Virus record (IMG/VR): IMGVR_UViG_3300037189_008394
Coordinates: 1 to 21,168 of that record
Reading direction: 5' to 3' (one strand)
From: a virus
Length of the DNA: 21,168 nt
The notes under the pieces were generated by a model. It had not been told where the DNA came from and searched no databases. It worked only from the letters and a program-made list of their open reading frames with translations. Numbering within the stretch: the stretch's first letter is position 1; the number at the start of each line of letters is the position of its first letter. This document shows positions 2,183 to 21,168 of this stretch, piece by piece. The translations under genes were made by a program, and so were the position numbers.

Positions 2183-2481
2183 TGGCTGTTTATGATGCAA
2201 CCAGTCCGTATTATCAGACTGGGTTTACACAATTTTATTTGGATACCATGGTTAACCGACCTATACCCAAAGAAAACGATGATAAATTCTTTAAAATAAA
2301 TCAAACATATCAATATCGTCCAGATTTATTAGCATATGACTTGTATAATTCTGCAGGACTATGGTGGGTATTTTATCAACGCAATCCAAACACATTAACA
2401 AAACCGCCTATTGATTTTGTAGCTGGTACGTTAATATATCTGCCAAAAATGTCAACACTAAGAACTGTTTTGGGATTATAA
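2182..2481 (+). CDS. 53: Baseplate wedge protein gp53
   Basis: gp53 links neighbouring wedges in the T4 baseplate. This 99-residue protein has the gp53 signature YRPDLLAYDLYNSAGLWWVF (residues 45-64), which aligns with T4 gp53 RPEELANAIYGNPQLYWVL. It is followed by a LysM-like tail (NPNTLTKPPIDFVAGTLIYLPK, residues 68-89). T4 gp53 is about twice as long, so this is a compact version consisting mostly of the core. The start overlaps the preceding stop (TAATG) and has a strong Shine-Dalgarno site. The following gene begins three bases after its stop. Gene order tube cap, gp53, hub, spike supports the call. Confidence 0.88.
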   Translation: MAVYDATSPYYQTGFTQFYLDTMVNRPIPKENDDKFFKINQTYQYRPDLLAYDLYNSAGLWWVFYQRNPNTLTKPPIDFVAGTLIYLPKMSTLRTVLGL

Positions 2482-2484
2482 TAA

Positions 2485-5400: not shown

Positions 5401-5493
5401 GCTGCCGATGATGGCACTGCATATTATGCCGGCCTTGGTGAAGATGTGTTTGTAACCACCACAGGTGGCCAATTAATGGATAGAGAAGCATAA
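2485..5493 (+). CDS. Large baseplate hub-like structural protein (candidate gp27 functional counterpart)
   Basis: This 1002-residue protein lies between gp53 and the gp5-like spike. Residues 1-55 are charged and leucine-rich with coiled-coil character. Residues 57-200 are acidic and probably disordered. An ordered core starts near 212 (YASYTYELGWYILKPGEISK) and runs on through LLVQSGG (247-253) and FDLDFYFDELQMTSLLPG (about 296). It includes a beta-rich stretch at 405-441 (FVPFLLQDIKFRVENK) and RGLHKRYNYWFTGLNNSVLK near 693. The last 110 residues are acidic and rich in T, S, E and D. I recall similar large proteins next to gp5 in aquatic T4-like phages, annotated only as structural. Its place just before the spike suggests the ring that gp27 forms in T4, but the protein is over twice as long as T4 gp27 and I see no direct sequence match. 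The ribosome site is weak, so coupling to gp53 is likely. Confidence 0.62.
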   Translation: MSKVQVLEAERTRLLEERDVLAAQYQAGDTSVLPQIQEINAQLREVVLQIEALSSLPVDSSGQIVTNAQLARDDGANTQIPELGRQIIDAEGRISFAEDNDTTPSNANKYSVNVDIGTDGEVRTLGETQTVSGPAEQGEMVSEPWYDAGSTQEDLEIRNSSPGVLISDRSQPGVGANDDSGAVTSKNVQQQTIDKLFANNKVSPQRNVLDDYASYTYELGWYILKPGEISKLMNTSQVNRAISGKQLLVQSGGAASRRPTSNANTASITDPTINTDPNSLEPVVVIGAGSGRNEFFDLDFYFDELQMTSLLPGGGAGTMAAHQNSELSFRIIEPNGISLISRLRSAVAKLYGDTYKAMGNNPANYVTAQYCLVIRFYGYDENGRAVQVGTTGATGESDEEVDNYYIEKFVPFLLQDIKFRVENKLVEYNITAKPIAYNFNIGSARGPIPYNLELTGKTIKEVLIGKTPNTTVSADATGLTRDDQFGQYDPTDSDFGAFGEPPTGTAPAPSNIVSAPNKKNNYTGLVEALNEIQQQHVKNKIYSIADEYVIEFAPDSIGGARVAKQGSVNKKVVPMQQTTTAADITLGDKQSMDINSRGFSVLAGTAVVQFIDQVMKTSGYISQQQLQVIDETDGTVRKNGTPANQVAWYKINFQASPIAYDPLRRDFAYKMKYVISAYGITTLQSEYFPDSKFRGLHKRYNYWFTGLNNSVLKFEQNYNALYQIVISGSPLGSTFANIYDSRQYTPRVFQPRSGQSSQYAEGRSNEPAANAADYLYSPTDQADVKLRIIGDPAWLQQGEVASAVNAKTFNFSPFLADGTINFDASEIAFDITWNRPQDYNLSTGVINPRPLNSNMDRENATYRATKIVSYFNKGSFEQELYGRLLPLSTAGSKTSSVDFAQKSIDLGTDADRETGSNVDPGIRTQGTLEPGEEIATDNTSPDSSETQISESATTPQPAEMAEAATSNGDIDSAADDGTAYYAGLGEDVFVTTTGGQLMDREA

Positions 5494-7745
5494 TGGCAGA
5501 TAATATTTCAAGAAGTACAGGAAGAAGTAAAAATTACAAGTTTGATCGAGGAGGTATGCCCTCTGAGTTTGGACCATTTATTGGCATAGTGACTAACAAT
5601 GTTGACCCAACAAGATCTGGTAGACTACAAGTTTGGATCGCAGAGTTTGGATCAGTTAACAAAGATGGCACACCAAATTTAACCGACGAATCAACATGGC
5701 GTACCGTCAGTTACCTTCCACCATTCTATGGCATAACTGAACACAGCGGTGCCCCAACTGGTGCAGGTGGATTTGTTCCGGGCAACAGACAATCTTATGG
5801 CATGTGGTTTACACCGCCTGACATTGGCGTAAGTGTAATGTGCTTTTTTGCCGGTGGCGATCCAACACAAGGGTACTACGTAGGATGCGTGCCTGAGCCT
5901 GGCCTTAATCACATGATTCCAGCAATTGGTGCCAGCAAAAAGTTTAAAATAACTAATCCTGCACAAGCCAATTATTTTGCTGGAGCAACACAGTTACCAG
6001 TAGTTGAAATCAATGATGAAAACGAAGGCATAGACAAAAATCCTAAATTCTATGACTCACAAAAACCAGTACATAGTGTACAGGCTGCAATTTTATTTCA
6101 GCAAGGTCTAGTCACTGACAACATTCGCGGCCCTATCACCAGCAACAGCCAACGTGAAAGTCCCAGCACCGTATACGGCATTTCGACTCCAGGCCGACCT
6201 GTGTACCAGGGCGGGTTTGATCCTGCTGAAATAAAACAAAAATTACAAACAGGACAGATTAAACCACAGGACATTATGGTAATCGGACGCCAAGGTGGAC
6301 ACACCTTTGTCATGGACGATGGCGACCTTACTGGAAAAAACACATTAGTTAGAATTCGATCAGCAAAAGGCCATCAAATTACAATGAGCGATGATGGTAA
6401 CTGTTTTTACATTACACATGCCAACGGTCAAACATGGTTAGAGTTTGGTGCAGAAGGCAGTGTCGATGTGTTTAGTACAAACTCAATCAACCTTAGAACT
6501 AAAGGCACATTAAATTTTCATGCTGATGGTGATATTAACATGTTTGCCGGAAAAACTGTGAACATAAAGTCTGGTTCTAACACCACAATTGAAGCGTCGG
6601 CTAAATTAAATCTTATATCTCAAGCTGCCACAACAATTTACAGCAAAAGTGTACTGGGCTTACTCAGCGATGGTGCATTGAACTTAAAATCAAAATCTGG
6701 TGGCTGGAATGGTGGGTCAGCACTAAACATTCAAGCCGGTTGTATTAACTTAAATGGCGGTGGGGCACCTTCAGTTTCGCCTCCTATTAGTCTGCGAGAT
6801 TTGTCGCTGACCGATGTTAAGTTTACCACCAGCGGATGGAAAGCTCAGCCAGGCACACTAAAAACAATTGTTACTCGAGCCCCAACACACGAGCCTTATC
6901 CGTACCACAATCAAGGTGTTAATGCAGTTACAAGTCTTGGAGAAGGTATACCGGCCAAACTAGAACCATCTGCAGAAGAAGCAATTTTTGCTGCCGAGGA
7001 CGCACCGCTTGAAGATCAAATTGACATTGCTGATTATACAGAGCAACCAACTGCTGATGACGGCCTAGGATCTTTAGATCAAGATGAATTTACTGGCGTA
7101 CTTGCACAGTCTGCGGTATCAACTGGACAACAATTTGATGAAATAGTACCAACTGATGACAATGTGTCAGTTGGTGCATATGGATTAAATTCAGGACAAC
7201 TAGAAACACTGGGATATGTTAAACCTGGAACAACACAGCAATTGATCAATGGTGATCCAACTACAGCAGAAAAAGTACTGGCTAATCCGTCAGTATGGAC
7301 CGGTAAAGGTGGCATTAATACATTAACTGGATTTTTATCTGACAAAAAAACACAGTCAACTGCACAACAGGCATTATTTGCAGCCACATTATCTGGACTA
7401 AAACAAAAAGGTGCAGTAACTGGCAACGAACCGTCAACACAGCTTGGAGGAATACTGCAAGTTGGTGCTAAGTTTGGTGTTGACACCGCAGTTAAATGGT
7501 TAAATGGAAACGCACCGTCGAGCTTGATTAATAATATTGCTAAGACTGCTAGACAGGGACTTTATGCCACTGCATTTTCAAATCAGAAGCTTGGTAGCCT
7601 TGGGCGTGCAACTGTACCGGGTTATAATAACACTGTGCAACGATCAAGCATTGACACCGCAGTTGGCGCTATTATTAATAGTTCAAAAATACCAACCCCA
7701 GATTTTAGTAACCCAGGAACAGATAATGCTGATGAAAATGTTTGA
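5493..7745 (+). CDS. 5: gp5-like baseplate central spike protein without visible lysozyme domain
   Basis: gp5 forms the trimeric cell-puncturing spike under the tail tube. An OB-fold like that of gp5 and VgrG begins at residue 23 (PSEFGPFIGIVTNNVDPTRS, then GRLQVWIAEFG) and continues to about residue 135 (GGDPTQGYYVGCVPEPG). Residues 270-425 hold short alternating repeats typical of the triple-stranded beta-helix, such as SINLRTKGTLNFHADGDI and KTVNIKSGSNTTIEASAKL. A THEPYPYHNQG motif follows near 465. The T4 protein has a lysozyme domain between OB-fold and helix. Here that stretch (about 150-265) looks unrelated, with no catalytic pattern I can identify. Residues 560-700 form another domain (YGLNSGQLETLGYVKPGTTQ, then VWTGKGGINTLTGFL) of unknown function. 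With 750 residues it is longer than T4 gp5 (575). The start overlaps the previous stop (TAATG). Confidence 0.85.
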   Translation: MADNISRSTGRSKNYKFDRGGMPSEFGPFIGIVTNNVDPTRSGRLQVWIAEFGSVNKDGTPNLTDESTWRTVSYLPPFYGITEHSGAPTGAGGFVPGNRQSYGMWFTPPDIGVSVMCFFAGGDPTQGYYVGCVPEPGLNHMIPAIGASKKFKITNPAQANYFAGATQLPVVEINDENEGIDKNPKFYDSQKPVHSVQAAILFQQGLVTDNIRGPITSNSQRESPSTVYGISTPGRPVYQGGFDPAEIKQKLQTGQIKPQDIMVIGRQGGHTFVMDDGDLTGKNTLVRIRSAKGHQITMSDDGNCFYITHANGQTWLEFGAEGSVDVFSTNSINLRTKGTLNFHADGDINMFAGKTVNIKSGSNTTIEASAKLNLISQAATTIYSKSVLGLLSDGALNLKSKSGGWNGGSALNIQAGCINLNGGGAPSVSPPISLRDLSLTDVKFTTSGWKAQPGTLKTIVTRAPTHEPYPYHNQGVNAVTSLGEGIPAKLEPSAEEAIFAAEDAPLEDQIDIADYTEQPTADDGLGSLDQDEFTGVLAQSAVSTGQQFDEIVPTDDNVSVGAYGLNSGQLETLGYVKPGTTQQLINGDPTTAEKVLANPSVWTGKGGINTLTGFLSDKKTQSTAQQALFAATLSGLKQKGAVTGNEPSTQLGGILQVGAKFGVDTAVKWLNGNAPSSLINNIAKTARQGLYATAFSNQKLGSLGRATVPGYNNTVQRSSIDTAVGAIINSSKIPTPDFSNPGTDNADENV

Positions 7746-7770: not shown

Positions 7771-8145
7771 ATGCCAACATTCATCGGATTCAACACTGTC
7801 GACCAACCTAAGAAATTTACGTTAACAAACTTTGATTTAGTTAAACGAGATTTTTTAAATGCCATTAACATCAGACAAGGGCAGTTAGTAGGCCGTCCAG
7901 GCTACGGAACTACCTTGTGGGATAACCTGTTTGAAAGTCAAACACAGGCCACACAAGCTGCCATTGAACGAGAAATACAACGTGTAGCTGGATTAGATCC
8001 ACGACTTTATATTAAATCAATTAACGCATATCCTCAGCAAAATGGAATATTGTTAGAAGTTGATGCTGCCATGGTACCTAGCACCGACGCTCAACGTCTA
8101 AGCATTTTCTTAGACCAAGAATCTCGACGAGCTAGTTACATATAA
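7771..8145 (+). CDS. 25: Baseplate wedge protein gp25
   Basis: gp25 (GPW_gp25 family) is a core wedge subunit with gp6 and gp53 and has relatives in type VI secretion baseplates (TssE). This 124-residue protein has about the usual length (T4 gp25 is 132). The family signature appears as GRPGYGTTLWDNLFE at residues 41-55. It is followed by the helix TQAAIEREIQRVAGLDPRL and the strand GILLEVDAAM, both as expected. ATG 7771 has no clear Shine-Dalgarno sequence and is preceded only by AT-rich DNA with a late-type box. The partner gene 6 lies 44 bases downstream, the usual pairing in aquatic T4-like phages. Confidence 0.92.
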   Translation: MPTFIGFNTVDQPKKFTLTNFDLVKRDFLNAINIRQGQLVGRPGYGTTLWDNLFESQTQATQAAIEREIQRVAGLDPRLYIKSINAYPQQNGILLEVDAAMVPSTDAQRLSIFLDQESRRASYI

Positions 8146-8189: not shown

Positions 8190-11100
8190 ATGGCAAAAAC
8201 TACAAGACAAACCGCAATATTTGGAGTTGAAGATTGGAAAAGAATCTATCAAACCTACCGAGAAGCTGACTTTCAAAGCTACGACTTTGAAACTCTACGC
8301 AAGAGTTTCATTGACTATTTGCGCTTGTACTATCCAGAAACATTCAATGATTATATTGAATCCAGTGAGTTTATTGCTTTATTAGATGTTATGGCCTTTA
8401 TGGGGCAAGGACTGGCATTCCGCACTGATCTTAATACTCGAGAAAACTATTTAGACACTGCCGAGCGCCGAGACAGCGTGGTTAGATTAGCTAACCTAGT
8501 AAGCTATACACCCAAAAGAAACACAGCCGCACACGGCTACTTAAAAGTTTTTTCTGTTTCTACCACAGAAAATGTCTACGACTATAATGGCATTAATCTT
8601 TCAAATATCACAGTTAACTGGGCAGACCCTACAAACCCAGACTGGCAAGAACAATTTACCAGTATTATCAATGCCGCATTGGTGGACAGTCAAAAAATTG
8701 GCCGCCCAGGCAATTCACAGACAATACTAGGGGTAAAAACCGACGAGTACGGAATTAGTTTACTGCCTGGCTTCTTGCCAATCATACCCTACAATGCCAC
8801 AGTTGACGGGGTATCAATGCCGTTTGAAGCAGTGAACTCTACCAGCGTGGGGAAAACATATCTGTATGAACCAGCACCGCGCCCCGGAGTACCGTTTAAT
8901 GTACTATACCGTAACGACAATCTAGGATACGAAAGTCCAGACACGGGTTATTTCTTTGCTTTTAAGCAAGGCGTGTTACAAAATCAAGACTTTAATTTAG
9001 CAGAACGTATTTCTAATAGATCCGTTAACATTAATATTGAAGGTGTTAACAATGATGACCGTTGGTTATTTCAACTCAGCAATGTAGGCAGCATTTCTAA
9101 AGAATGGACCTATGTTGACAGCGTGTATAGTGCCGCAGTAGAACAACTATCTCCAAATTTAAGATCGCTGTTTTCTGTCAGCAGTAGAACCAATGACCAA
9201 ATTACTTTAAACTTTGGCGATGGCGTATTCAGTCAGATCCCAGTAGGCTTGTTCCGCTGTTACGTTCGTGCCAGCAACGGTCTTGAATACATTATTAATC
9301 CTGAAGAAATGCAGAGTGTAAGTCTGCCTATCAGCTATGTTAGTCGTACTGGACAAAACCAAGTAATAACATTCACCTGCGGTATCACAACACCGGTGTC
9401 CAATGCATTGGCTAGAGAATCAATAACAGAAATTAAACAACGTGCGCCTGCTCGTTACTATACACAAAATCGTATGGTTAACGGTGAGGACTATAACAAT
9501 TTTCCGTTTACTGCATACAACAGTATTTTAAAAAGCAAAGCTCTTGCACGTAGCAGTATTGGTACCAGTCGATATCTTGATCTAGTAGATAATACTGGAA
9601 AATATTCAAGCACTAATACGTTTGGCAGCGATGGCGCCTTGTATGAAAACAATGTGTTACCTACAATTTTATTCAGCTGGCTAACCACCAACGACATTGT
9701 TGATGCAATTACAAACAAGCTACAGCCAAATTTAGTTGGCAGTTTGATGCATCAGTTTTACTATGCTAACTTCTACCGCCCATCATTGACAACTGGATTA
9801 CCAGTTACCTGGCACCAAAGTACCACACAGGTCAACGAAACCAGTGGTTATTTTGTAGTGTCCGGTAGCCCAGCCCCAATTGGATTCTATTCTGGATCTA
9901 ATACAAAGTATATTACAGTTGGTTCTATTGTAAAGTTTGTGCCACCTCCTGGTTACTTTTTTGACGCAAACAATAGACTCAAAGTTGGGACTCCGGTACT
10001 AGCCGATGAAAAATTAGAAATATGGGCATCGCCTACCAGTGTAATACTTGACGGTACTGCACAAGGTGTTGGCAACTTACCTAACGGAGTTGGTCCAGTA
10101 GTTTTAAATAATTTTGTTCCTACTGGCGCAATTGCCAGTCAGGTTATTCCGTTGTTTAACACCGACTTGCCCACAGACATACAGCAACAGATGCTAGAGC
10201 AAATTGAGTTGTTTAGAAATTTTGGACTTGGGTACAACAATTTAACCAACACTTGGTATGTAATTTCTTCAACAAACTTAGATCAAGATGCGGCATTTAG
10301 TTTGGCTAACGCACAATCAACATTAGGCATTAACAATGATGCCAGCTGGCTAGCACAGTTTGTAACAAATGGCGAGTCTTATACTATAACTCTAAGAGGC
10401 CTAGCATACTATTTTGGTAGTGTATTAAAAACTAGATTCTTCTTTAACGATGGTAACAAAATCTATGATAGCCGCACAGGAACAACTATTAAAGATTTTA
10501 TCAATGTGTTAAAAACCAATAGCAAACCTGACTCTAATCAGCCTTTGCCCGGTGACATATACATGACCATTGTTGGTCAACCTGTACAAAGCGACGGTTA
10601 CGTTGACGACTTTCAGGTATTAGTAAGTTATCGAGACAGTGATGCAGATAATGTTCCTGACAACCCTGACTTTTTCTCTGAAATTGTTGGACCAGAACCA
10701 ACATCGGGACAACCCGGTAGTCTAGTGTTCTTGCAGGAAACAGTTGACTTTGATAACCTGCAGAGATATCTGTTAGTTGAAAAAGACATTGTCAACTATT
10801 CCTATGCTACACAGTCTGCAATTGAAGCAGTTAAATTGGAATATGTCCCTGGACAGGTATTTTATGCATACACAGATAATGCATTTTACATCTTAGTTGA
10901 AAATATTGATGGTGTTAGATCGTTACAATCAACTACAGAATTTATTACCCGCAAAGGACGCCAAGATCTATATTTCCAGTATAGACACAATAGTCCATTG
11001 ACCAGCAGGATTGATCCCGGTACTACCAACATTATTGATTTGTATGTCGTGACACAACAGTACTATACTGCATATCAAAACTGGGTGCGCGATACCACTG

Positions 11101-11600
11101 ATACAATACCTATGCCCGAGATGCCAACAATTAATCAGTTAAGCAATGAATATGCAGGACTGCAAGAATATAAAATGATATCCGACAATGTTGTGTTAAA
11201 CTCGGTGACATTTAAACCATTATTTGGCGCCAAGGCAGCCAAAGAATTGCAAGCAACAATAAAAGTTATCAAGGCAGCAGGTAGCACAGCCAGCATCAGT
11301 GAGATTAAGAATTTAGTGATTGCAAACATTAACAACTATTTTACCATTGACAAATGGAATTTTGGAGACACGTTCTATTTCTCAGAATTAGCCGCATACC
11401 TACATAAACAAATGGGAGATGTTATCAGTTCAGCAGTATTGGTTCCGTTAGACATACAAAAGAGTTTTGGCGATCTCTATGAAATTCGTAGCGCACCCAA
11501 TGAAATATTTGTTAATGCAGCCACAGTTGCGTCAGTTGAAGTTATCGACGCATTAACAAGCACAAATTTACGCACAGCACCCGGTAGTGGAGTTATATAA
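8190..11600 (+). CDS. 6: Baseplate wedge protein gp6 (enlarged)
   Basis: gp6 forms the ring that holds the wedges around the hub and drives baseplate rearrangement on infection (baseplate J-like family). The N-terminus is typical. It has YQTYREADFQSYDFETLRKS (residues 20-39), YIESSEFIALLDVMAFMGQG (55-74), then TRENYLDTAERRDSVVRLAN (83-102) and SYTPKR. The C-terminus (about 1048-1087, with WNFGDTFYFSELAAYLHKQM and VISSAVLVP) also fits gp6, as does the following SFGDLYEIRSAPNEIFVN segment. At 1136 residues it is far longer than T4 gp6 (660). The excess lies in the middle (about 450-950), which reads as extra beta-rich modules. The stop overlaps the next start (TAATG). I am confident of the family. 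The role of the middle is unknown. Confidence 0.9.
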   Translation: MAKTTRQTAIFGVEDWKRIYQTYREADFQSYDFETLRKSFIDYLRLYYPETFNDYIESSEFIALLDVMAFMGQGLAFRTDLNTRENYLDTAERRDSVVRLANLVSYTPKRNTAAHGYLKVFSVSTTENVYDYNGINLSNITVNWADPTNPDWQEQFTSIINAALVDSQKIGRPGNSQTILGVKTDEYGISLLPGFLPIIPYNATVDGVSMPFEAVNSTSVGKTYLYEPAPRPGVPFNVLYRNDNLGYESPDTGYFFAFKQGVLQNQDFNLAERISNRSVNINIEGVNNDDRWLFQLSNVGSISKEWTYVDSVYSAAVEQLSPNLRSLFSVSSRTNDQITLNFGDGVFSQIPVGLFRCYVRASNGLEYIINPEEMQSVSLPISYVSRTGQNQVITFTCGITTPVSNALARESITEIKQRAPARYYTQNRMVNGEDYNNFPFTAYNSILKSKALARSSIGTSRYLDLVDNTGKYSSTNTFGSDGALYENNVLPTILFSWLTTNDIVDAITNKLQPNLVGSLMHQFYYANFYRPSLTTGLPVTWHQSTTQVNETSGYFVVSGSPAPIGFYSGSNTKYITVGSIVKFVPPPGYFFDANNRLKVGTPVLADEKLEIWASPTSVILDGTAQGVGNLPNGVGPVVLNNFVPTGAIASQVIPLFNTDLPTDIQQQMLEQIELFRNFGLGYNNLTNTWYVISSTNLDQDAAFSLANAQSTLGINNDASWLAQFVTNGESYTITLRGLAYYFGSVLKTRFFFNDGNKIYDSRTGTTIKDFINVLKTNSKPDSNQPLPGDIYMTIVGQPVQSDGYVDDFQVLVSYRDSDADNVPDNPDFFSEIVGPEPTSGQPGSLVFLQETVDFDNLQRYLLVEKDIVNYSYATQSAIEAVKLEYVPGQVFYAYTDNAFYILVENIDGVRSLQSTTEFITRKGRQDLYFQYRHNSPLTSRIDPGTTNIIDLYVVTQQYYTAYQNWVRDTTDTIPMPEMPTINQLSNEYAGLQEYKMISDNVVLNSVTFKPLFGAKAAKELQATIKVIKAAGSTASISEIKNLVIANINNYFTIDKWNFGDTFYFSELAAYLHKQMGDVISSAVLVPLDIQKSFGDLYEIRSAPNEIFVNAATVASVEVIDALTSTNLRTAPGSGVI

Positions 11601-14600
11601 TGGCACAAGCCCAAGTACGCAGTATTGATTTTTTACCTGAGATTTTTCAAACTCAGACAAATCGCCAATTTTTAGCCGCAACATTAGATCAATTAATACA
11701 AGAACCAAAGTTTAAAAAGACACAGGGGTTTGTAGGTCAAACAGTTGGCCCAGGAGTTAACCCCAACGATTATTATGTCACAGAACCAAGCAAAGTTCGG
11801 AGCGACTATCAACTTGAACCTGGCGTAATTATCAAGAAGCCAGACAGTGACACTATCAAAGATGCAATCACTTATCCAGGGATAATCGATGCATTAACAG
11901 TCAAAGGCGCAAACTCTCCAAACAACGATCGTTTGTTCACCAGTGACTACTATACCTGGGATCCGTTTGTTGACTATGATAAGTTCTCAAATTTTAGTCA
12001 ATACTATTGGCTGCCGCAGGGACCAGACAGTGTAGTTGTAGCCGCAACAACAGTACCAGTTACCAACGATTTTGATGTAACACGTACAAACAAAGGATAT
12101 ACAGTTGTTGGGGAATCTGGTCGCAACCCAACGATCACACTTGTTCGAGGCGGGAATTATACATTTAATGTAAATCAACCTAATCAACCATTCTGGATTC
12201 AATCAGCCCCGGGTGTTACTGGCCAATTACCTGCAACACCAAATCTCAGCAGTCGCGGAGTATTAGGTGTAAGCAACAACGGAGCTTCATCTGGACAGGT
12301 TACATTTAATGTGCCGTACAAAACAGCACAGAACTTTTATTATCAAAATTTAAACAGCATTGGTACAGTGGACTTAGTCACTGACTTAAAATACAGCGAC
12401 ATTAACAATGTTTTCGTCACTGATTTTATTGCCAAGTATGGCGGCATCGACGGCATTAAAGACCTCAACGGCCGCACATTGATTTTTAAACACACTGTTG
12501 AAGATGCAGCCGCAGCAGGCTGGCTAGAAACCACTCAGTTTGACCCAATAGTTCGAACCGCACCTAATCAAGTTGGTGAAAATATCAGTTATGATATTAA
12601 CAGCCAACCATACGATGATGTGCCTTATGAAACAATCACAGACATTATTGTAAGCGGCAGTTCAGATCCTCTTGACGGCCAGCCGGGATCATTTGATTCA
12701 ACTACATACGATCAAGTTACACCTATTAACGACCCAGCTGTTCGCTACGGAATCTGGCAGATTAACTATGTAGCCACCGATGATGGCACATTTTACATTA
12801 AATTAAATGTTTATCAAACTGTAAGCGCACTATCGTCATTCTCTATCAAGTACGGTACAGAATATAGTAGCTCACAATGGTTTAAAAATCAAACTGGATA
12901 CTTTGAAGAATTCCCACTGCTAAGTGCAGTGCAAGATGTATTGTATTATCAAGATACTACCAATCCAGCATTTTTTGGCGAAATTAGATTAATCGATCAA
13001 ACTTCCGATCAAACTTTGTTTATCGAAGATATTATTGGAAAGCCAACATTTACTAGTCCTAACGGGGTTACATTCACCAACGGACTAAAAGTTCAATTTG
13101 AAGGTACAGTTGTTCCTAGCAGTTACCAAGGACAAACATACTATGTTGAAGGTGTGGGTTCGGCAATACAATTATTGCCGGTGGGCAATTTTGTTACTCC
13201 GGAGACATACACACAAAGTGAAACATTACCATTTGACAGTCTTGGATACGATATTGGCAACTTTGATGCAAACTTAAATGCACCGGATATACAAGATTAT
13301 ATTACAATTAATCGAGCAAGCCCAGACTTAAACGCATGGACTCGTAGCAATCGCTGGTTCCACTTGCAGGTAATTTTAGATACTGCAACTTATAATAATC
13401 AGCCACCTAAGCTCAACAATCTAAGACGAGCACGTCGACCTATTTTAGAATTTAGACCCGGCATTAAACTCTGGGACTCGGGCACAAAAGGCAAACAGCC
13501 AATTGATATCATTGACTTTGTACAGACTGATGCATTAAGCAATGTTGATGGTACAATTGGATATAGCACCAATGGCTATACTTTAGTAGCAGGTACTCGA
13601 ATTGTGTTTGCAGCCGACAACGATCTGCAGGTTAGAAACAAAGTATACACTGTGCAATTTATCAAGCCTGACGGAGTGCCACCGCTAATTGCTCAACCAG
13701 TGATTAACTTAGTTGAAGCGCCAGATGCATTAGTGTTACCTGACGAAACTGTTGTCTGTTTAAACGGCGCAACACTACAAGGTGTTACTTTTAGATTTAA
13801 CGGTGACACTTGGATCCAGTCACAGCAAAAGAATTCTGTCAATCAAGCACCATTGTTTGATGTTTATGACAGTCAAGGAATTAGTTTGGGCAACAGAGAT
13901 GTATATCCTAGCTCGTCATTTCTTGGCACAAAATTATTTTCATATGCCGCAGGCTCTGGTTCAGCTGATGATGTTTTAGGATTCCCACTAAGATATTTGA
14001 CCATTAACAATGTAGGCGACATTGTATTTGACAATAATCTTTACAAAGATACATTTTACTACGTTGTCAATGCTTCTAGTATTACTAAAAATATCAGTAT
14101 TGGCACTGTTAGAGAATATTCTGACAGGGTTGTGTTTGAACGAAAACTGGGCTGGCAACGAGCTGTAGTCCAAAGCCGACAATACCAACAATTTAAGTTT
14201 ACCTATGATGGATCTCCGTTAATCTTAGATGTTGTGGTTGTTGACCCTGACTCAATCCCGCCAATAAAATTATATGTTGGATCAAAGTTCCAGGACACTA
14301 ACACTTATACCATTGAACGAAACACAATTGATAACACCACGGTTATAACATTATTGTATACTTACGTGCCCGGCGATGTAATCGAAGTACTGGCATTAAG
14401 TAATCAAGTAAGCCAAATTGGTTTTTATCAAGTCCCAATTAATTTACAAAATAACCCATTCAATGGAAATTCTGACACGTTTACCCTTGGATCAATACGC
14501 AAGCACTACGAAAGTATCTGCGAAAACTTAACAGATTTAACAGGACCTGTTAATGGCAGCAATAATTCTAGAGATCTCGGAAATATTGTTCCTTATGGTC

Positions 14601-17600
14601 TAAACATATTACAACAAAGCAGTCCGTTGACTCTTGCTGGGTATTTCCTGCGCAGTCCAGAGTATGAGATTTTTGCCGCAATTAATTATAATAGTCAAGA
14701 GTATATTAAGTTTAAATCAAAACTATTGTATACAGTTGCTCAAAATGACTATAGCAATATGACCACTGCTGAAATTTTAGATTCAGCAATTGATACTATT
14801 AATCAAGGAAAAACTTCTAGAGATCCATTCTACTGGAGTGATATGTTGCCTAGTGGAAATATCTATACTAGCAACACCTACATTTACAATACAATAAGCA
14901 CACCTATTTTTAATACTGTGCAGTCGTATAATTTTAATAGTTCTAATTATCAAGGTCTGTTGGTATTTTTAAACAATGTATTGCTGACAATAGGCTACGA
15001 ATATGTTGTGACTGAAGATTCTGCGCACATAGAAATTCTTGTACCATTAGTCGACGGGGACGTGGTAGAGATTAGAGAGTATTCGGCTACATATGGAAAC
15101 TTTGTGCCCAACACACCAACAAAGATGGGACTGTATCCATCGTACAAACCTAAAATATTTTTAGATGATACATTTGTAAATCCTCGAATGGTAATACAGG
15201 GTCACGACGGAAGTATCACTGTGGGGTTTGGCGACTTTAGAGATCAAGTGCTATTAGAATTTGAGACTCGAATTTTTGATAATTTAAAAATACATTCCAA
15301 AATACCAATTGTACCAGCTGACGTAATACCCGGCGAGTTTAGAACAACTGGATATTCAAAAGCTGATATCACAAATATTTTATCTGAAAGCTTCTTAAGC
15401 TGGGTAGCTTGGAACAAATTAGATTTTAATAGTCAAACATTTATTGCCGACAACGAGTTTACTTGGAACTATAGTTCATCTGGAAATAAAATTAATGGAC
15501 AACCACTAATTGGCGGTTGGAGAGGCTCGTATCTATACTACTATGACACTATCTCTCCTAATACAACGCCTTGGGAGATGCTAGGGTTCAGCGAAGAACC
15601 TAGTTGGTGGGAAAATAGATATGGTTCTGTGCCATACACCAAAGGAAACTTGGTGTTATGGGACGACCTTGAAATTGGTTTGGTAGCAGATCCTGCGGGC
15701 CCATATATATTACCGCAGTATGCACGCCCGGGTCTTACCAGTATTATCCCTTCAGGTACCCAAGGAGAGCTGCTAAGTCCGTTCGACAGCCTAGTAGGCC
15801 CATACAATTCCGCAAACTTTAAAAAGAGCTGGTCAGTGGGCGATGTTGGACCAGTTGAAGGTAGCTGGATTAACAGCAGTAGCTATCCATTTGCACTAAT
15901 GCGCTTGTATGCATTAACACGACCAGCAGAGTTTTTTGCATTGTTTGCAGACCGTGATCTCTACAAATACAATGCTGAATTTGATCAATATTTGTACAAT
16001 GATCGTTACAGACTTGACGCCAGTGGAGTGCAGATTTACGGAAATGGTACGTCAAAGGCCAGTTATATCAATTGGATTGTGGACTACAATCGACAGTTAG
16101 GGCATGACAGTACTACTATTTTACAAGAAGATTTAGCCAGCTTGGATGTGCGCCTGTGCTATCGCATGGCATCATACACTGACAAACAGTATCTAAAAAT
16201 ATATTTAGAAAAAAGCAATCCTAACAGTACCAACAGCAGTCTGTTGTTGCCCGACGACAGCTACAATGTCTTGCTCTATAAAAATCAACCATTTAAAAGT
16301 ACCACATACAGTTCAGTGGTGGTACAGCGTGTTGAAAAAGGCTATGCAGTCTACGGATACAGCAATGAAAATCCCTTCTTCCAGATTTTGGTTAGCAAGC
16401 CAGTTGGACCAACCCGAACATTGTTTGCTGGGGGAATAACTGTTACAGTGCCAACAGAATATACCAATACAATTGCACAAGTTCCATACGGCTATGTGTT
16501 CACTAATGCCACAGTAATGGCTGATTTCTTGTTAAGCTATGGTGAATTTTTAAAATCCCAAGGCATGGTATTTGAAACTGTTGAGAATGGTTACATACTT
16601 GATTGGCCGCAAATGGCCCAGGAATTTTTATACTGGGTTGGCCAAGGGTGGGCGCCAGGTAGTGTAATTAATTTGAATCCTAATGCTACAAAATTAGTAG
16701 TTTCACAGCCACAGGCTGTGGTTGACAATGTAGTAGTGCAAACCCCTACTAAACAAATACTGGATCAAAATAAAAATAAATTCCCTGCAAGAGACGCAGT
16801 GATTGACCGCAACGGTAATTTGTTTACTATCTCTAGTCCAACTCAACAAACAATATCTTTTGTTGACCTGCAATTTACCAGCTACGAGAATTTGCTAGTT
16901 CTTAATAATGTTAGCACGTTCAATGACTTAATCTACGATCCTATCACAGGATCTAGACAGAGCCGAATCAATATGGTTGGATGGACCACCACAGATTGGA
17001 ACGGAACGGTTGATGCTCCGGGCTTTATTTTCAATGAAGAGACAGTACTTGAGTGGCAGCCGAATAAAAAATATACCAAAGGGCAGATAGTAATTTACAA
17101 AAACAATTATTGGAGCGCACAAAACATTATACAACCAAAAGTAACTTTTGACTATAATGATTGGGTAAAGAGTGACTATACTTTAATACAAAAAGGTATG
17201 TTGCCTAACTTGGCTAACAAAGCTAATCAACTGCAAAACAGTTATAATGTTAACTCGGCAAATCTTGAGCGTGACAACGACCTGTTAAGCTATGGCCTTA
17301 TTGGATTCCGACCACGCCAGTACATGCAGGCTCTTAATCTTGATGATGTCAGTCAAGTAAATGTCTATAAGCAATTCTTAAAGACCAAAGGAACTCGTCG
17401 AGCCATTCAACAATTTACTAATGCTGACCTAGGCAAGGAAATAGCCGAATACAATGTTTATGAAAACTGGGCAATCCAACAGGCAGTTTATGGTGCTAAC
17501 GCAAACAGAAGCTACATCGAACTTCGATTAAACGCCGCAGATTTAAAATCTGATCCATCATTGGTGCAGGTAATACAGCCTGGTCAAGAAAGTGATGCTG

Positions 17601-20600
17601 ATCAAACAATATTATTAAATGATGTCTGGAAAGAAAGTTATAAACTAACATCTACAGATATTTTACCTACCACATATACAACGCCACTTGACAAGGGCTT
17701 GCCCAGTGCAGGATATGTTGACTTAGATGATGTGGACATCACAGTATTTGATCTTGAAGATCGTACTGCGCTTGATGCTTATCTAAGCAATATCAAAGTT
17801 GGCACTAAAATTTGGGTGGCTAAAGTTGATGAGTACAATTGGAATGTTTACAGAACTGATGCTGTGCCCGGTTATATTGAATCTGTCACTGACAACCTAA
17901 ACGGAACCAGCACAGTTAATTTTACTAAACCACACAATCTAGTAGATAATCAAACAATTATTATCAAATATTTTAACCCAGCGGTTGATGGTGTGTACAA
18001 TGTACTAGCAGTTACCGGTGTTAACACTGTGACTATTGCATATACTTTTACTGGAACTGCAACCACAATTGAAGGTGACGAAGGTATTGTGTTTTATACA
18101 CAGACCATGCGCATCAAACAGCCCAGCGACATTGTTAATTTGTCCTATGCTAAACAGTTATTTGCTGGTGCTAGAGTGTGGGTTGACACTGATAGCCAAG
18201 GGCATTGGGAAGTATTAGAAAAGCAAGATCCATTTAAGTCAAGTCAAATACTAGATGTTGGTACAACATACCCACTTGAAGAATTTGGAACATCAGTTGC
18301 ACAAGCTCGCGAAAATATCAGTGCTTTAGTTGGCGCCCCTGGCTATAAAACAGCCGGTGGCGTATATGTTTATCAGCGCAGTCCCAACGTCGGGTATGTG
18401 CCAGATGCTATCATTGAATTAGATGCCACAGCTACATCGGGATTTGGTAATTCGTTAAGCATTGGAAATCAAGATTGGGCGTTTGCTGGCGCCAGCAAGA
18501 GCCGCGGGGACGAAGGTTACGCAGCCGTATTGCATAGATATTCAAATACAGCTTGGCAAATGTGGCAATTGTTTATTGCAGATGATCAGCCAGGATACGG
18601 GTTATACGGAAATTCAGTAGTAGTCAGTGACAATGAACGCTGGGCTTATGTTGGTGCACCTGGCGCTAACTCAGTGTATGCTTATGGCAAAGTTGACGTA
18701 CAAACACAGAAAAAAGAGTTTGTAACTGACGGAACATCATATCAATTTTATATTGGTAATGCTATTCAATTCAACGAAGATACCCAGTTATCAGTGGTAT
18801 TAAGCAATCAATTGTTGATATTAAACACAGATTACACAGTGTTGAACGGTGATACTATTGTATTCCCCGAAGCACCACGTGCATTGCAACCATTGGTGGT
18901 TTCAAGACTTACTAGCACACAATTAGATCGAACCACATACTATAATGTTGTTGCGTCAAACGTAACAGCTTCGGGTGGATCGGGTGCAGTGTTTACTGTT
19001 GTAAACACTCGTGGCGTCTACAACACTTCAGTTTCAAATGGCGGCCTTGGATACATTATTCCTGAAGGATTTTATAATTCAACAGGCAGTAGCGGCACCA
19101 CTTTTAAAGTTGACAGCACAGTTGGCATCGTGCCGGGAATGGTCTGCCTAGGTACAGGTGTAACGGCTGGACAAAAAGTAGTAACTGTGTTAGATTTAAC
19201 AACAGTTATTTTAGATGCACCTCCAAACGGTTTGCCAGTTAACGGACAAAATTATAGATTCTGTCCAGTATTAAAAATTGTAGGCACAGACATTGGCGGC
19301 GCAAGTCCAGCAAATGATCTTTACTTGACAGTGACAAACTCAACAACCACAACTGGCATGGTACAGATTGTAACTAGTTCTGGCAGCGGTGTATCAAATA
19401 ACAACTACTTCCCGTTGTCGGACTATTTCTATACAATTGATAACTTGTATGGCTTTACTGTATTTGTAAACGGAACTATTCAACGGCCTAAACTTGATTA
19501 TGAATTTAACAGTGACAGTAGCGGGCATTATCCATTGCTGTTAGAGTTTATAACTATTCCACCTGCTGGCGCAGAAATTGTAGTTAAGGCACAGTCGTAT
19601 TACGAATACGTTAAAACTATTACAGTCTCCGGTCTACCACAGGATGCAAAGTTTGGTCAGACTGTGAGTTGCACCACCGATGGCCGACAAGTAATCATTG
19701 GTGCTCCATATACCAATGATACCTATGACAAGAGTGGATCGGTATATGTGTTTGATCGTAATGTTCAAAGATATATCATAACTGACCCAACTGTGACAAC
19801 ATTTGCACTGCCTGTTGGTTGGTCTGGACCGGTGTCTGTTATATTGAATAACCAGTTCTTGACCAACAACAGAAACTTTATCGACGGGCAATTTAGTGTT
19901 AACGGTAACAATGTTGAGATCAACAGTAACATCAAATTAAATGTTGGTGACATTTTAGAAATTGAAAATAATATTTTCACTCAACTACAAAAACTCACTG
20001 AAAATACTCCGGCTAAGAATGCATATTATGGATGGAGTACTGATATCTGTAATGTAAATTGTAGCATTTATATCGGTGCTCCCAATGACGACTATGCATT
20101 ATCTAAAGCTGGATCAGTTGAACGTGCTGTAAACCAAGCCAAAGTATACGGTGTGATCACATCTACTGTGCCTAACCCTGCACTAACTGCTGGCAACACA
20201 CTGCGTATTAATAACATGGTTATAGCGGTGCCTGCGTATCCAAACAATAATGTAGCTGGACTAGCTGCCGCAATTAATGCCAGCACAATACCAAATGTTG
20301 TGGCAGCAGTATCCAACGGATACTTGACATTAACTGTGAAAAATTATGATGCTGCCGCAAACTTTAACAAACTAAATGTGTTGCCAGGAGCAGTAGGGTC
20401 AGCATTTACTGCATTGGGATTCAAGCCTTTTGTATACACACAGACTATTGTAAGTCCAGTACCACAGTACTATGCAAAATTTGGTCAATCTGTTAACATA
20501 GATACATCATCAACTAACTTAACAATTGGTGCGCCAAACGGATCTGTAATACAGCCAACAACATTTGATAATGGTCAAACATATTTTGACGGCCGTGCTA

Positions 20601-21168
20601 CTACAATTATTAATCTTATTGAGCGTAGTGGAGTTGTTTACACATACGACTATTTTGAAAGTGCAGAACCATCAGTGGTTAATCCTGGCAAATTTGTATT
20701 TGGACAACAGGTTTATACAGACAACGTCTACGAACAAGATCAGTTTGGTACATCAATTAACTATACATCCGGGGTACTAATGATTGGTGCGCCGGGCTAT
20801 GATGCAGGTGACAGCACTTTATTGGCTTACGGATCAACTTCGGTACTAAATAATCCTAATAGAACACTTGCTTGGGTGCCAATCCGTAAACAATCTCCAA
20901 CAGTTGAAGTGTCACTGTTAAATTCTGTTTACATGTACAACAGAATAACATCGGCAAAAACACAGTTTTTTGATTTTATTAATCCGTTACAGGGTAAAAT
21001 TTTAGGTGTTGCACAACAAAATATTGATTTTATCGGATCAATTGATCCTGCAAGTTATAATATCGGTACAGTTAATAATTTTGGTAATTCGTGGCAGGAC
21101 AATTATGTTGGACAAATTTGGTGGGATACATCAATGGCTCGATTCATTGATCCCAACCAAGACGACAT
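11600..21168 (+). CDS. Giant modular baseplate/tail structural protein, >3189 residues (3' end beyond window)
   Basis: One open frame starts at ATG 11600, overlapping the gp6 stop, and stays open to the last base. The frame agrees at every point I checked along its length. Conserved-looking N-terminal blocks are SIDFLPEIFQTQTNRQFLAA (residues 8-27) and WDPFVDYDKFSNFSQYYWLP (about 119-138). Similar sequences follow gp6 in aquatic T4-like phages as I remember them, annotated only as virion structural proteins. Modules seen in order are a cupredoxin-like sandwich (176-249), a conserved-looking block (NQAPLFDVYDSQGISLGNRD, from about 748), two early copies of a 60-residue beta module, a CBM5/12-like patch (1818-1857), a block with GFRPRQYMQALNLDD (about 1903), and seven FG-GAP-like motifs (about 2228-3080) with inserts. 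No signal peptide or transmembrane segment is apparent. Its place after gp6 is that of T4 gene 7, a wedge protein of about 1030 residues, so a wedge or peripheral baseplate role is inferred. Confidence 0.85.
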   Translation, partial: MAQAQVRSIDFLPEIFQTQTNRQFLAATLDQLIQEPKFKKTQGFVGQTVGPGVNPNDYYVTEPSKVRSDYQLEPGVIIKKPDSDTIKDAITYPGIIDALTVKGANSPNNDRLFTSDYYTWDPFVDYDKFSNFSQYYWLPQGPDSVVVAATTVPVTNDFDVTRTNKGYTVVGESGRNPTITLVRGGNYTFNVNQPNQPFWIQSAPGVTGQLPATPNLSSRGVLGVSNNGASSGQVTFNVPYKTAQNFYYQNLNSIGTVDLVTDLKYSDINNVFVTDFIAKYGGIDGIKDLNGRTLIFKHTVEDAAAAGWLETTQFDPIVRTAPNQVGENISYDINSQPYDDVPYETITDIIVSGSSDPLDGQPGSFDSTTYDQVTPINDPAVRYGIWQINYVATDDGTFYIKLNVYQTVSALSSFSIKYGTEYSSSQWFKNQTGYFEEFPLLSAVQDVLYYQDTTNPAFFGEIRLIDQTSDQTLFIEDIIGKPTFTSPNGVTFTNGLKVQFEGTVVPSSYQGQTYYVEGVGSAIQLLPVGNFVTPETYTQSETLPFDSLGYDIGNFDANLNAPDIQDYITINRASPDLNAWTRSNRWFHLQVILDTATYNNQPPKLNNLRRARRPILEFRPGIKLWDSGTKGKQPIDIIDFVQTDALSNVDGTIGYSTNGYTLVAGTRIVFAADNDLQVRNKVYTVQFIKPDGVPPLIAQPVINLVEAPDALVLPDETVVCLNGATLQGVTFRFNGDTWIQSQQKNSVNQAPLFDVYDSQGISLGNRDVYPSSSFLGTKLFSYAAGSGSADDVLGFPLRYLTINNVGDIVFDNNLYKDTFYYVVNASSITKNISIGTVREYSDRVVFERKLGWQRAVVQSRQYQQFKFTYDGSPLILDVVVVDPDSIPPIKLYVGSKFQDTNTYTIERNTIDNTTVITLLYTYVPGDVIEVLALSNQVSQIGFYQVPINLQNNPFNGNSDTFTLGSIRKHYESICENLTDLTGPVNGSNNSRDLGNIVPYGLNILQQSSPLTLAGYFLRSPEYEIFAAINYNSQEYIKFKSKLLYTVAQNDYSNMTTAEILDSAIDTINQGKTSRDPFYWSDMLPSGNIYTSNTYIYNTISTPIFNTVQSYNFNSSNYQGLLVFLNNVLLTIGYEYVVTEDSAHIEILVPLVDGDVVEIREYSATYGNFVPNTPTKMGLYPSYKPKIFLDDTFVNPRMVIQGHDGSITVGFGDFRDQVLLEFETRIFDNLKIHSKIPIVPADVIPGEFRTTGYSKADITNILSESFLSWVAWNKLDFNSQTFIADNEFTWNYSSSGNKINGQPLIGGWRGSYLYYYDTISPNTTPWEMLGFSEEPSWWENRYGSVPYTKGNLVLWDDLEIGLVADPAGPYILPQYARPGLTSIIPSGTQGELLSPFDSLVGPYNSANFKKSWSVGDVGPVEGSWINSSSYPFALMRLYALTRPAEFFALFADRDLYKYNAEFDQYLYNDRYRLDASGVQIYGNGTSKASYINWIVDYNRQLGHDSTTILQEDLASLDVRLCYRMASYTDKQYLKIYLEKSNPNSTNSSLLLPDDSYNVLLYKNQPFKSTTYSSVVVQRVEKGYAVYGYSNENPFFQILVSKPVGPTRTLFAGGITVTVPTEYTNTIAQVPYGYVFTNATVMADFLLSYGEFLKSQGMVFETVENGYILDWPQMAQEFLYWVGQGWAPGSVINLNPNATKLVVSQPQAVVDNVVVQTPTKQILDQNKNKFPARDAVIDRNGNLFTISSPTQQTISFVDLQFTSYENLLVLNNVSTFNDLIYDPITGSRQSRINMVGWTTTDWNGTVDAPGFIFNEETVLEWQPNKKYTKGQIVIYKNNYWSAQNIIQPKVTFDYNDWVKSDYTLIQKGMLPNLANKANQLQNSYNVNSANLERDNDLLSYGLIGFRPRQYMQALNLDDVSQVNVYKQFLKTKGTRRAIQQFTNADLGKEIAEYNVYENWAIQQAVYGANANRSYIELRLNAADLKSDPSLVQVIQPGQESDADQTILLNDVWKESYKLTSTDILPTTYTTPLDKGLPSAGYVDLDDVDITVFDLEDRTALDAYLSNIKVGTKIWVAKVDEYNWNVYRTDAVPGYIESVTDNLNGTSTVNFTKPHNLVDNQTIIIKYFNPAVDGVYNVLAVTGVNTVTIAYTFTGTATTIEGDEGIVFYTQTMRIKQPSDIVNLSYAKQLFAGARVWVDTDSQGHWEVLEKQDPFKSSQILDVGTTYPLEEFGTSVAQARENISALVGAPGYKTAGGVYVYQRSPNVGYVPDAIIELDATATSGFGNSLSIGNQDWAFAGASKSRGDEGYAAVLHRYSNTAWQMWQLFIADDQPGYGLYGNSVVVSDNERWAYVGAPGANSVYAYGKVDVQTQKKEFVTDGTSYQFYIGNAIQFNEDTQLSVVLSNQLLILNTDYTVLNGDTIVFPEAPRALQPLVVSRLTSTQLDRTTYYNVVASNVTASGGSGAVFTVVNTRGVYNTSVSNGGLGYIIPEGFYNSTGSSGTTFKVDSTVGIVPGMVCLGTGVTAGQKVVTVLDLTTVILDAPPNGLPVNGQNYRFCPVLKIVGTDIGGASPANDLYLTVTNSTTTTGMVQIVTSSGSGVSNNNYFPLSDYFYTIDNLYGFTVFVNGTIQRPKLDYEFNSDSSGHYPLLLEFITIPPAGAEIVVKAQSYYEYVKTITVSGLPQDAKFGQTVSCTTDGRQVIIGAPYTNDTYDKSGSVYVFDRNVQRYIITDPTVTTFALPVGWSGPVSVILNNQFLTNNRNFIDGQFSVNGNNVEINSNIKLNVGDILEIENNIFTQLQKLTENTPAKNAYYGWSTDICNVNCSIYIGAPNDDYALSKAGSVERAVNQAKVYGVITSTVPNPALTAGNTLRINNMVIAVPAYPNNNVAGLAAAINASTIPNVVAAVSNGYLTLTVKNYDAAANFNKLNVLPGAVGSAFTALGFKPFVYTQTIVSPVPQYYAKFGQSVNIDTSSTNLTIGAPNGSVIQPTTFDNGQTYFDGRATTIINLIERSGVVYTYDYFESAEPSVVNPGKFVFGQQVYTDNVYEQDQFGTSINYTSGVLMIGAPGYDAGDSTLLAYGSTSVLNNPNRTLAWVPIRKQSPTVEVSLLNSVYMYNRITSAKTQFFDFINPLQGKILGVAQQNIDFIGSIDPASYNIGTVNNFGNSWQDNYVGQIWWDTSMARFIDPNQDD
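12125..12346 (+). other. Cupredoxin-like beta-sandwich in the giant protein, no copper ligands seen
   Basis: Residues 176-249 read NPTITLVRGGNYTFNV, then QPFWIQSAPG, a GVSNNGASSGQVTFNVP segment and FYYQ. This resembles the tLxRGxxYtFxV...HPFxI...NNG...G.vtFxVP pattern of cupredoxin-like domains. The usual metal-binding His, Cys and Met positions are not present: Q stands where HPF would have H, and no C or second H follows. It is probably a structural sandwich only. The family match is from memory. Confidence 0.4.
14190..19977 (+). repeat. Five dispersed copies of a ~60-residue beta module
   Basis: Five diverged segments share the pattern (V/L)xV(F/I)(L/V)Nxxx(L)...xxY, a loop, then a hydrophobic strand and (P/V)xGDxIxV. 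Approximate spans are 14190-14407, 14910-15090, 18711-18918, 19418-19612 and 19766-19977. Cores include LLVFLNNVLLTIGYEYVV, LSVVLSNQLLILNTDYTV, FTVFVNGTIQRPKLDYEF and VSVILNNQFLTNNRNFID. Three close with GDVIEV, GDVVEI and GDILEI, and one with AEIVVK. The conservation is at protein level only. Copies three to five lie within the propeller region, between FG-GAP motifs. Confidence 0.5.
17051..17170 (+). other. CBM5/12-like carbohydrate-binding patch in the giant protein
   Basis: Residues 1818-1857 read EWQPNKKYTKGQIVIYKNNY, then WSAQ, a spacer with P and the closing NDWVK. This follows the chitin-binding CBM5/12 pattern (W...Y..G..V.Y....Y.A......P....W) in spacing and aromatic positions. In that family the aromatic residues stack on sugars. 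The module is a single short copy, and the assignment is by eye. Confidence 0.45.
18281..20840 (+). repeat. Seven FG-GAP-like motifs, probable seven-bladed beta-propeller
   Basis: Seven segments share (F/Y)G.S......(V/I)GAP...(G)..Y.Y. They begin near 18281 (EFGTSVA...VGAPGY...VYVYQR), 18440 (GFGNSLS...AGASKS), 18599 (LYGNSVV...VGAPGA...VYAYG), 19649 (KFGQTVS...IGAPYT...VYVFDR), 20024 (YYGWSTD...IGAPND), 20477 (KFGQSVN...IGAPNG...VYTYDY) and 20741 (QFGTSIN...IGAPGY). FG-GAP repeats form the blades of integrin-alpha-like propellers, and seven is the canonical number. The calcium-binding DxDxDG loop of integrins is not evident. Long inserts lie between motifs 3 and 4 (about 960 bases), 5 and 6, and 6 and 7. 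Confidence 0.65.
20174..20430 (+). other. Flagellin-hook-IN-like insert between FG-GAP motifs 5 and 6
   Basis: The insert reads AGNTLRINNMVIAVP, NNNVAGLAAAINASTIPNVV, AAVSNGYLTLTVKN and FTALGF. This follows the flagellin hook IN pattern: a strand with INg, a helix LAaaINa, (g)V.A......L.L, and an ending LG. The motif occurs in flagellins, hook-associated proteins and some phage structural proteins. Here it would be a small alpha/beta knob protruding from the propeller. It could instead be a convergent pattern. Confidence 0.45.

Follow-up and report, generated by a model that had tools for sequence, protein, structure and literature searches.

The DNA analysed here, referred to below as the window, is an IMG/VR virus record of 21,168 bases taken in its entirety (IMGVR_UViG_3300037189_008394). 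It encodes a set of genes for baseplate and other virion proteins, behind a late sigma factor, and it ends within a very long open reading frame. The genes are as follows.

1..720, − strand: late sigma factor (gp55-like), truncated at the record start (phrog_12791, E 8.3e-56)
830-2182: virion structural protein (phrog_12050), on one flank of the gp53-like gene
2182..2481, + strand: gp53-like wedge protein (phrog_7145, E 1.8e-22; T4-type gp53 profile comparison, E 1.2e-6)
2485-5493: virion structural protein (phrog_11190), on the other flank of the gp53-like gene
5493..7745, + strand: gp5-like hub/spike protein (phrog_13211, E 2.8e-36)
7771..8145, + strand: gp25-like sheath initiator (PF04965, E 1.5e-7)
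8190..11600, + strand: gp6-like baseplate wedge protein, 1136 aa (phrog_10646, E 9.1e-279; phrog_219, E 1.4e-26; T4-type gp6 profile, E 1.6e-12)
11600..21168, + strand: giant virion protein gene in the gene-7 position (ATG start, 3189 codons to 21166, no stop before the record end; phrog_10938)

The order late sigma factor, structural protein, gp53, structural protein, gp5, gp25, gp6 and giant protein is common to the window and the phages PA5oct, PBECO4 and RaK2, with differences confined to a handful of small genes inside the gp5-gp6 interval. In PA5oct these are two opposite-strand genes between gp5 and gp25; PBECO4 and RaK2 differ by a few small genes of this interval. The neighbouring late sigma factor is likewise found in all three phages, as is the arrangement of phrog_12050 and phrog_11190 genes around the gp53-like gene. 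An intact gp6-like ORF ends at the start of the giant in 76 of 80 contig relatives (the best 80 of 229), and a family gp6 model was built from these 76 loci and five isolates. The placing of the giant gene in the gene-7 position after gp6 by the initial annotation agrees with the order gp53, gp5, gp25, gp6, giant. The gp5-like hub protein (5493-7745) has no lysozyme domain in Pfam, whereas RaK2 gp5 is described as lysozyme-bearing. In Salicola phage SCTP-2 the gene before the giant encodes 3096 aa (L086:6609-15899); its identification as a fused gp6 was considered but is not supported (E 2).

The final base of the gp6 gene, 11600, is also the first base of the ATG of the giant (junction ATATAATGG). 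From there the ORF extends on the + strand to 21166, open at its 3' end, and since the window is the whole 21,168-base virus record the gene is cut by the contig end. A frame of 3189 codons is far beyond chance. It had been described as open for at least 3189 codons and leaving the window, which is correct, and as more than three times the length of T4 gp7, which is an understatement given that T4 gp7 has 1032 residues.

A scan of IMG/VR yielded 229 stretches encoding relatives, the best 80 of which were retained. These best 80 of 229 match the giant at 44-59% identity over the best tblastn segment, and many span residues 4-3189. The giant is one complete ORF in 52 of the 80, some of the 52 being near-identical copies; it is cut by the contig or locus end, with no break, in 24, and it lies in two or three ORFs in the remaining four (L028, L077, L078 and L079), where the break sites differ and the splits, either sequencing errors or genuine, look sporadic. 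The possibilities raised at the outset, of a frameshift or assembly error in the window or of homologues divided among several genes, are thus not borne out by the relatives. An assembly artefact or a chimeric contig might be argued from the four divided relatives and from the record being a short fragment, but the 52 whole ORFs lie on other contigs and homologues of 3326-4449 aa are present in six isolate genomes, which reduces the probability of this explanation almost to nothing. The giant gene is real and no product of assembly.

An alignment of 54 rows comprised 47 contig relatives, six isolates and the window, identical proteins and proteins shorter than 3800 aa having been removed from the contig set and L078 being included with its first piece only. 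The 47 relatives are 3933-5212 aa long with a median of 4790 aa (~520 kDa); one of them, L026, has 4718 aa and a mass of 518 kDa, compared with 119 kDa for T4 gp7. They continue past the window end for 1142-2077 residues (median 1598; 46 relatives, the split L078 being excluded), and the full-length protein of the window is expected, by comparison with them, to have ~4300-5270 aa. Mean identity per 100 residues between the window giant and the 47 relatives is 0.39-0.71 outside the lineage-variable stretches, falling to 0.22 at residues ~300-400 and to 0.25 and 0.08 at residues 2400-2600.

The family to which the giant belongs is, by homology, already known. One PHROGs family is matched, phrog_10938 ('virion structural protein', E 1.6e-258, best stretch residues 916-1817), which has members in PA5oct, RaK2, PBECO4 and Atu_ph07; its library category is head and packaging, and gene order speaks against this. 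By tblastn the giant matches 60 phage records, all at less than 60% identity and nearly all from genomes larger than 280 kb, including PA5oct-like, RaK2-like and PBECO4/121Q-like phages, Atu_ph07, SCTP-2, a Vibrio phage and others. The isolate homologues include proteins of 3857 aa in PA5oct, 3333 aa in PBECO4 (383.1 kDa) and 3326 aa in RaK2. When the open protein was searched in its entirety against PDB sequences, nothing matched at E <= 1. The gene had been called structural, and although the phage of the window is uncultivated, relatives of the giant are virion proteins. The record of PA5oct annotates its giant, gp355, with ESI-MS/MS virion evidence, and the available text on phage CBB, which is RaK2-like, reports 21 virion peptides for CBB_236, the neighbour of the gp6 homologue CBB_237 (PMC5259590). 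In phAPEC6, gp245 (381.88 kDa, 17 peptides) adjoins the wedge protein gp244, according to the available text of PMC7247149; from its position and the PBECO4 mass, gp245 would belong to the same family.

Within the giant, a conserved backbone and its insertions can be delimited as follows, all on the + strand.

11600..12049, + strand: N-terminal block, residues 1-150, LPEIF..N..FL.ATLDQL, conserved with all six aligned isolates
12050..13279, + strand: lineage-variable insert 1, residues ~151-560 (alignment)
13280..17749, + strand: backbone common to RaK2/PA5oct-type giants, residues ~561-2050 (alignment, tblastn)
17051..17116, + strand: CBM_5_12-like stretch, residues 1818-1839 (sub-threshold, E 0.079)
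17249..17449, + strand: candidate gp7 core, residues ~1884-1950, KGT motif at 1930-1932 (profile-profile scans)
17750..20884, + strand: lineage-specific insert 2 with FG-GAP propeller, residues ~2051-3095 (Pfam, alignment)
18278..18406, + strand: FG-GAP repeat 1
18437..18568, + strand: FG-GAP repeat 2
18596..18730, + strand: FG-GAP repeat 3
19643..19768, + strand: FG-GAP repeat 4, preceded by ~300 residues of inserted modules
20018..20134, + strand: FG-GAP repeat 5
20471..20608, + strand: FG-GAP repeat 6
20735..20863, + strand: FG-GAP repeat 7
20885..21166, + strand: start of the conserved C-terminal backbone, residues 3096-3189, continuing past the record (alignment)

The backbone common to the 47 contig relatives, the six isolates and the window consists of residues 1-150, ~560-2050 and 3095 onward. 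Insert 1, measured between residues 140 and 560, has 420 aa in the window and 319-609 in the 47 loci; the isolates have 9 aa (PBECO4, RaK2 and Vibrio 2.275), 85 (PA5oct and SCTP-2) or 136 (Atu_ph07). Insert 2 has 1045 residues in the window, 151 in PBECO4 and RaK2, and 1470 in Atu_ph07, the last devoid of FG-GAP repeats. As judged from the alignment, the size of the giant comes mostly from a large backbone common to RaK2-like phages together with two lineage-variable inserts, and not from recognisable neighbouring T4 genes.

Pfam identifies FG-GAP_2 (PF14312) in three stretches of the window giant at E 3.4e-15. A repeat model built from seven window repeats picked by eye, and therefore counting the window best by construction, finds seven in the window and between five and seven in 46 of the 47 relatives (seven in 30, six in 14 and five in two). 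In L067 and in the six isolates it detects no repeat. The first of these exceptions (L067:9409-21210) is a divergent relative of 3933 aa, otherwise of the same clade. The seven-repeat domain is predicted to form a propeller of the integrin-alpha type. Between repeats 3 and 4, inside the propeller, residues ~2400-2600 (18797-19399) contain glycine-rich modules and, at an identity of 0.08-0.25, have hardly any counterpart in the relatives. The CBM_5_12 domain is recognised in three stretches of L026 at E 3.4e-8. What is new here is accordingly a longer branch of a known giant virion protein family bearing a predicted propeller; no paper joining phage, FG-GAP, baseplate and virion was found in the PMC literature.

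The wedge of known contractile baseplates contains one gp7-type and two gp6-type chains, joined by a core bundle and a trifurcation, as set out in the available part of PMC10457771. A KGT motif in the giant was first spotted by a pattern search, and profile scans were run afterwards. Profile comparison works at this distance, because the family gp6 and gp53 profiles find their T4-type counterparts (E 1.6e-12 and 1.2e-6, respectively). Profile-profile comparison of nine gp7 cores with the family block gave an alignment of 68 columns at P 6e-4, in which the KGT motifs are in register. When the giant was cut into 156 overlapping windows and scanned with a mixed template, those four that contain the KGT block took ranks 1-4, with a best score of 26.0 and P 5e-4, which corresponds to ~0.08 after correction for all 156 overlapping windows; the best of the other windows scored 15.8 (P 0.048). 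These four windows again took the top four places when the template was cyanophage cores alone (best P 5.8e-4) or six short gp7s alone (best P 0.0014 when these are cut to the core and 0.0032 uncut). None of 200 column shuffles reached the gp7-core score (maximum 20.0 versus 25.4).

Other searches were less responsive. T4-type gp7 cores alone miss the KGT site, their best P of 0.011 falling elsewhere in the giant. With HMMER the KGT site of the window was the top row among 1886 ORFs, though at a non-significant E of 2.8, and with a longer core model it was not the top row; the whole giant searched against T4-type gp7 reached a best E of 0.29, and T4-only profiles were likewise without a match. 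A second gp7 motif, HPxGF, gave no signal over the 156 windows of the giant; by pattern it is also absent from two of five cyanophage giants in the gene-7 slot, those of ACG-2014f and of S-CAM22, the latter examined in part. The other proteins of the window showed no signal with the gp7 core (best of 27 gp6 windows P 0.068), and among solved structures no wedge chain matches the core block of the giant family. Taken from the profile comparisons, a gp7 core in the middle of the giant, at residues ~1884-1950, is probable.

Two further sites were considered and rejected. The N-terminus begins with LP..F and a helix and so resembles cyanophage gp7 in appearance; comparison of profiles, however, gave P 0.3. 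An AlphaFold2 model of residues 1-192 was uninformative (mean pLDDT 49.8) and, when compared with 56 chains, matched none at a Z of 2 or above. The C-terminal part, represented by residues 3076-3780 of L026, gave P 0.79 against gp7 cores. Its model (pLDDT 72.2) reached a best VIA-align Z of 4.1, to unrelated chains, and no Foldseek match in the PDB at E <= 0.001; 12 BFVD matches were obtained at E <= 0.001, the named ones being large phage proteins, among them a structural protein of Atu_ph07.

These observations bear on two accounts of the giant. It may be a peripheral decoration of the baseplate or tail, such as a fibre anchor or an adhesin, which is merely encoded after gp6, the true gp7 being another, unrecognised small protein. 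Such a role would fit the adhesin-like FG-GAP and CBM5/12 modules and the absence of T4-type gp7 similarity from both HMMER and T4-only profiles, and what is shared with the giants of cyanophages is for the most part glycine-rich repeat modules rather than backbone. However, backbone and position are conserved across phages of very different hosts, and the gp7-core signature occurs at one site. Furthermore, no credible gp7-core gene appears elsewhere in ten related genomes and long contigs, where a search of low sensitivity, which also misses the site in the giants, produced weak matches with internal stops. We consider a decoration of this kind unlikely, if the most serious competitor. The account we favour, with moderate confidence, is that the giant supplies the third chain of the baseplate wedge, being the protein which RaK2/PA5oct-type jumbo phages encode in the gp7 slot, enlarged to ~4,800 residues.

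The initial annotation went further, in proposing that the giant might merge the roles of gp7, gp8 and gp10. Of this the gp7 part survives in the probable core signature, while the merger with gp8 and gp10 finds little in the profiles. Over 39 windows of the giant, T4-type gp8, gp9 and gp11 profiles stayed at noise level (gp8 best P 0.026), and the gp10 profile reached a best P of 0.0058 in a weak stretch near residue 4300 of L026. A single chain in which gp7, gp8 and gp10, or a fibre anchor, are fused would account for the size of the giant, for this gp10-like stretch and for the failure to find a credible gp8 gene in ten related genomes and long contigs, where the gp8 profile gave weak matches with internal stops only. 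Against this stand the noise-level profiles and the cyanophage ACG-2014f, which has a separate gp8 behind its gene-7-slot giant of 4225 aa; a giant in this slot accordingly needs no fusion. A fused chain is improbable, and a gp8-like role might lie anywhere. Downstream, the nearest ORF of at least 100 aa has 200-221 aa in 51 of the 55 relatives whose longest giant ORF is complete, as counted by eye and by length only; two of the exceptions are loci that end earlier and two are split. In L026 this ORF belongs to phrog_11259, of unknown function. PA5oct has a 201-aa gene after its giant and, further on, a gene noted as T4-like gp10.

If the giant is indeed the gp7-slot chain of the wedge, its short core would lie in mid-chain and would probably associate with a pair of gp6 chains in the manner of a (gp6)2-gp7 wedge. 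By analogy, the long flanks around the core may extend outward from the wedge at the rim of the baseplate. The FG-GAP propeller and the CBM-like modules on these flanks could there make contact with the host surface or anchor fibres, and such contact might be relayed to the wedge ring and on to the sheath. Known baseplates, with their (gp6)2-gp7 stoichiometry as given in the available part of PMC10457771, would suggest some six copies per virion, or ~3.1 MDa. Should the located core be right, gp7 would be inflated and interrupted rather than missing, the wedge heterotrimer would remain universal, and a concrete role could be given to the largest structural genes found in jumbo phages. Should it be wrong, there would still be a new, longer and propeller-bearing branch of a known giant virion protein.

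It is attractive to consider, tentatively, that T4-related contractile tails have in their gp7 slot a general platform for growth, on which one small core of the wedge has expanded independently, from 284-316 aa (Det7 and C48C1) to 1032 aa (T4), 3,300-5,200 aa (RaK2-type phages and the clade of the window) and 6,817 aa (ACG-2014d). 'gp7-less' phages would then hide gp7 in giant adhesive proteins, and in the present case a seven-bladed integrin-like propeller would act as a host-contact sensor wired into the wedge. Giant proteins in the gene-7 slot are already in public records; no paper was found, by title or the beginning of its abstract, which treats them as gp7. The list of T4 homologues of CBB includes gp6, gp25 and gp53, and the term gp7 is absent from the available text (PMC5259590). 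As far as the available parts of two further papers go, gp7 is counted within the non-cyanophage core only (PMC3037559), and is stated to be absent from cyano- and pelagimyophages, being substituted by VrlC (PMC7029224). This statement of absence is at odds with the profile match of the core of the cyanophage giants to T4 gp7 (P 4.5e-7).

A number of parallels can be drawn with known systems. The giants that follow gp6 in cyanophages of the Kyanoviridae and relatives (L089, L095-L098) have, by annotated coordinates, 3045 aa in S-CAM3, 4225 in ACG-2014f, 4458 in MED4-213, 6273 in S-CAM22 and 6817 in ACG-2014d, that of ACG-2014f being annotated 'baseplate wedge initiator'. Like the window giant they lie directly after gp6, are of giant size and carry a probable gp7-core signature and glycine-rich repeat modules. 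However, their backbone is not homologous to that of the window giant in the searches made here, and in S-CAM3 and MED4-213 the core is near the N-terminus and detectably similar to T4 gp7, whereas the candidate core of the window giant is in mid-protein. In S-CAM3, two stretches matching T4 gp7 are ~1830 residues apart, against ~108 in T4. T4 gp7 also follows gp6, overlapping the gp6 gene, and has a KG-motif core behind a large N-terminal region, as the giant probably does; it is four to five times shorter than the giant, to which T4-type gp7 alone has no detectable sequence similarity.

At the other extreme are short gp7s, which profile comparison links to T4 gp7 (P 4.5e-5) and to the cyanophage giants (P 4.8e-13). 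Det7 gp204 of the Ackermannviridae (284 aa) and the protein of C48C1 of the Kyanoviridae (316 aa) have the KGT-type core signature that is probable in the giant, and little beyond the core. The 316 aa of the C48C1 protein (L103:1234-2184) occupy a gene-7 slot that in ACG-2014d, of the same family, encodes 6817 aa. In XM1 the gp7 orthologue, gp17, has 242 residues and, in the part of PMC10457771 available, flexible parts that are involved in tail spike binding. Closest to the window giant are the phrog_10938 proteins of RaK2, PBECO4, PA5oct, Atu_ph07, SCTP-2 and Vibrio 2.275, which have a homologous backbone with 25-31% identity over aligned residues and take the same post-gp6 slot wherever the neighbour is recognisable. 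The clade of the window differs from these isolates, with their 3326-4449 aa, in its greater length (median 4790 aa among the 47 relatives), its longer insert 1 and its FG-GAP propeller.
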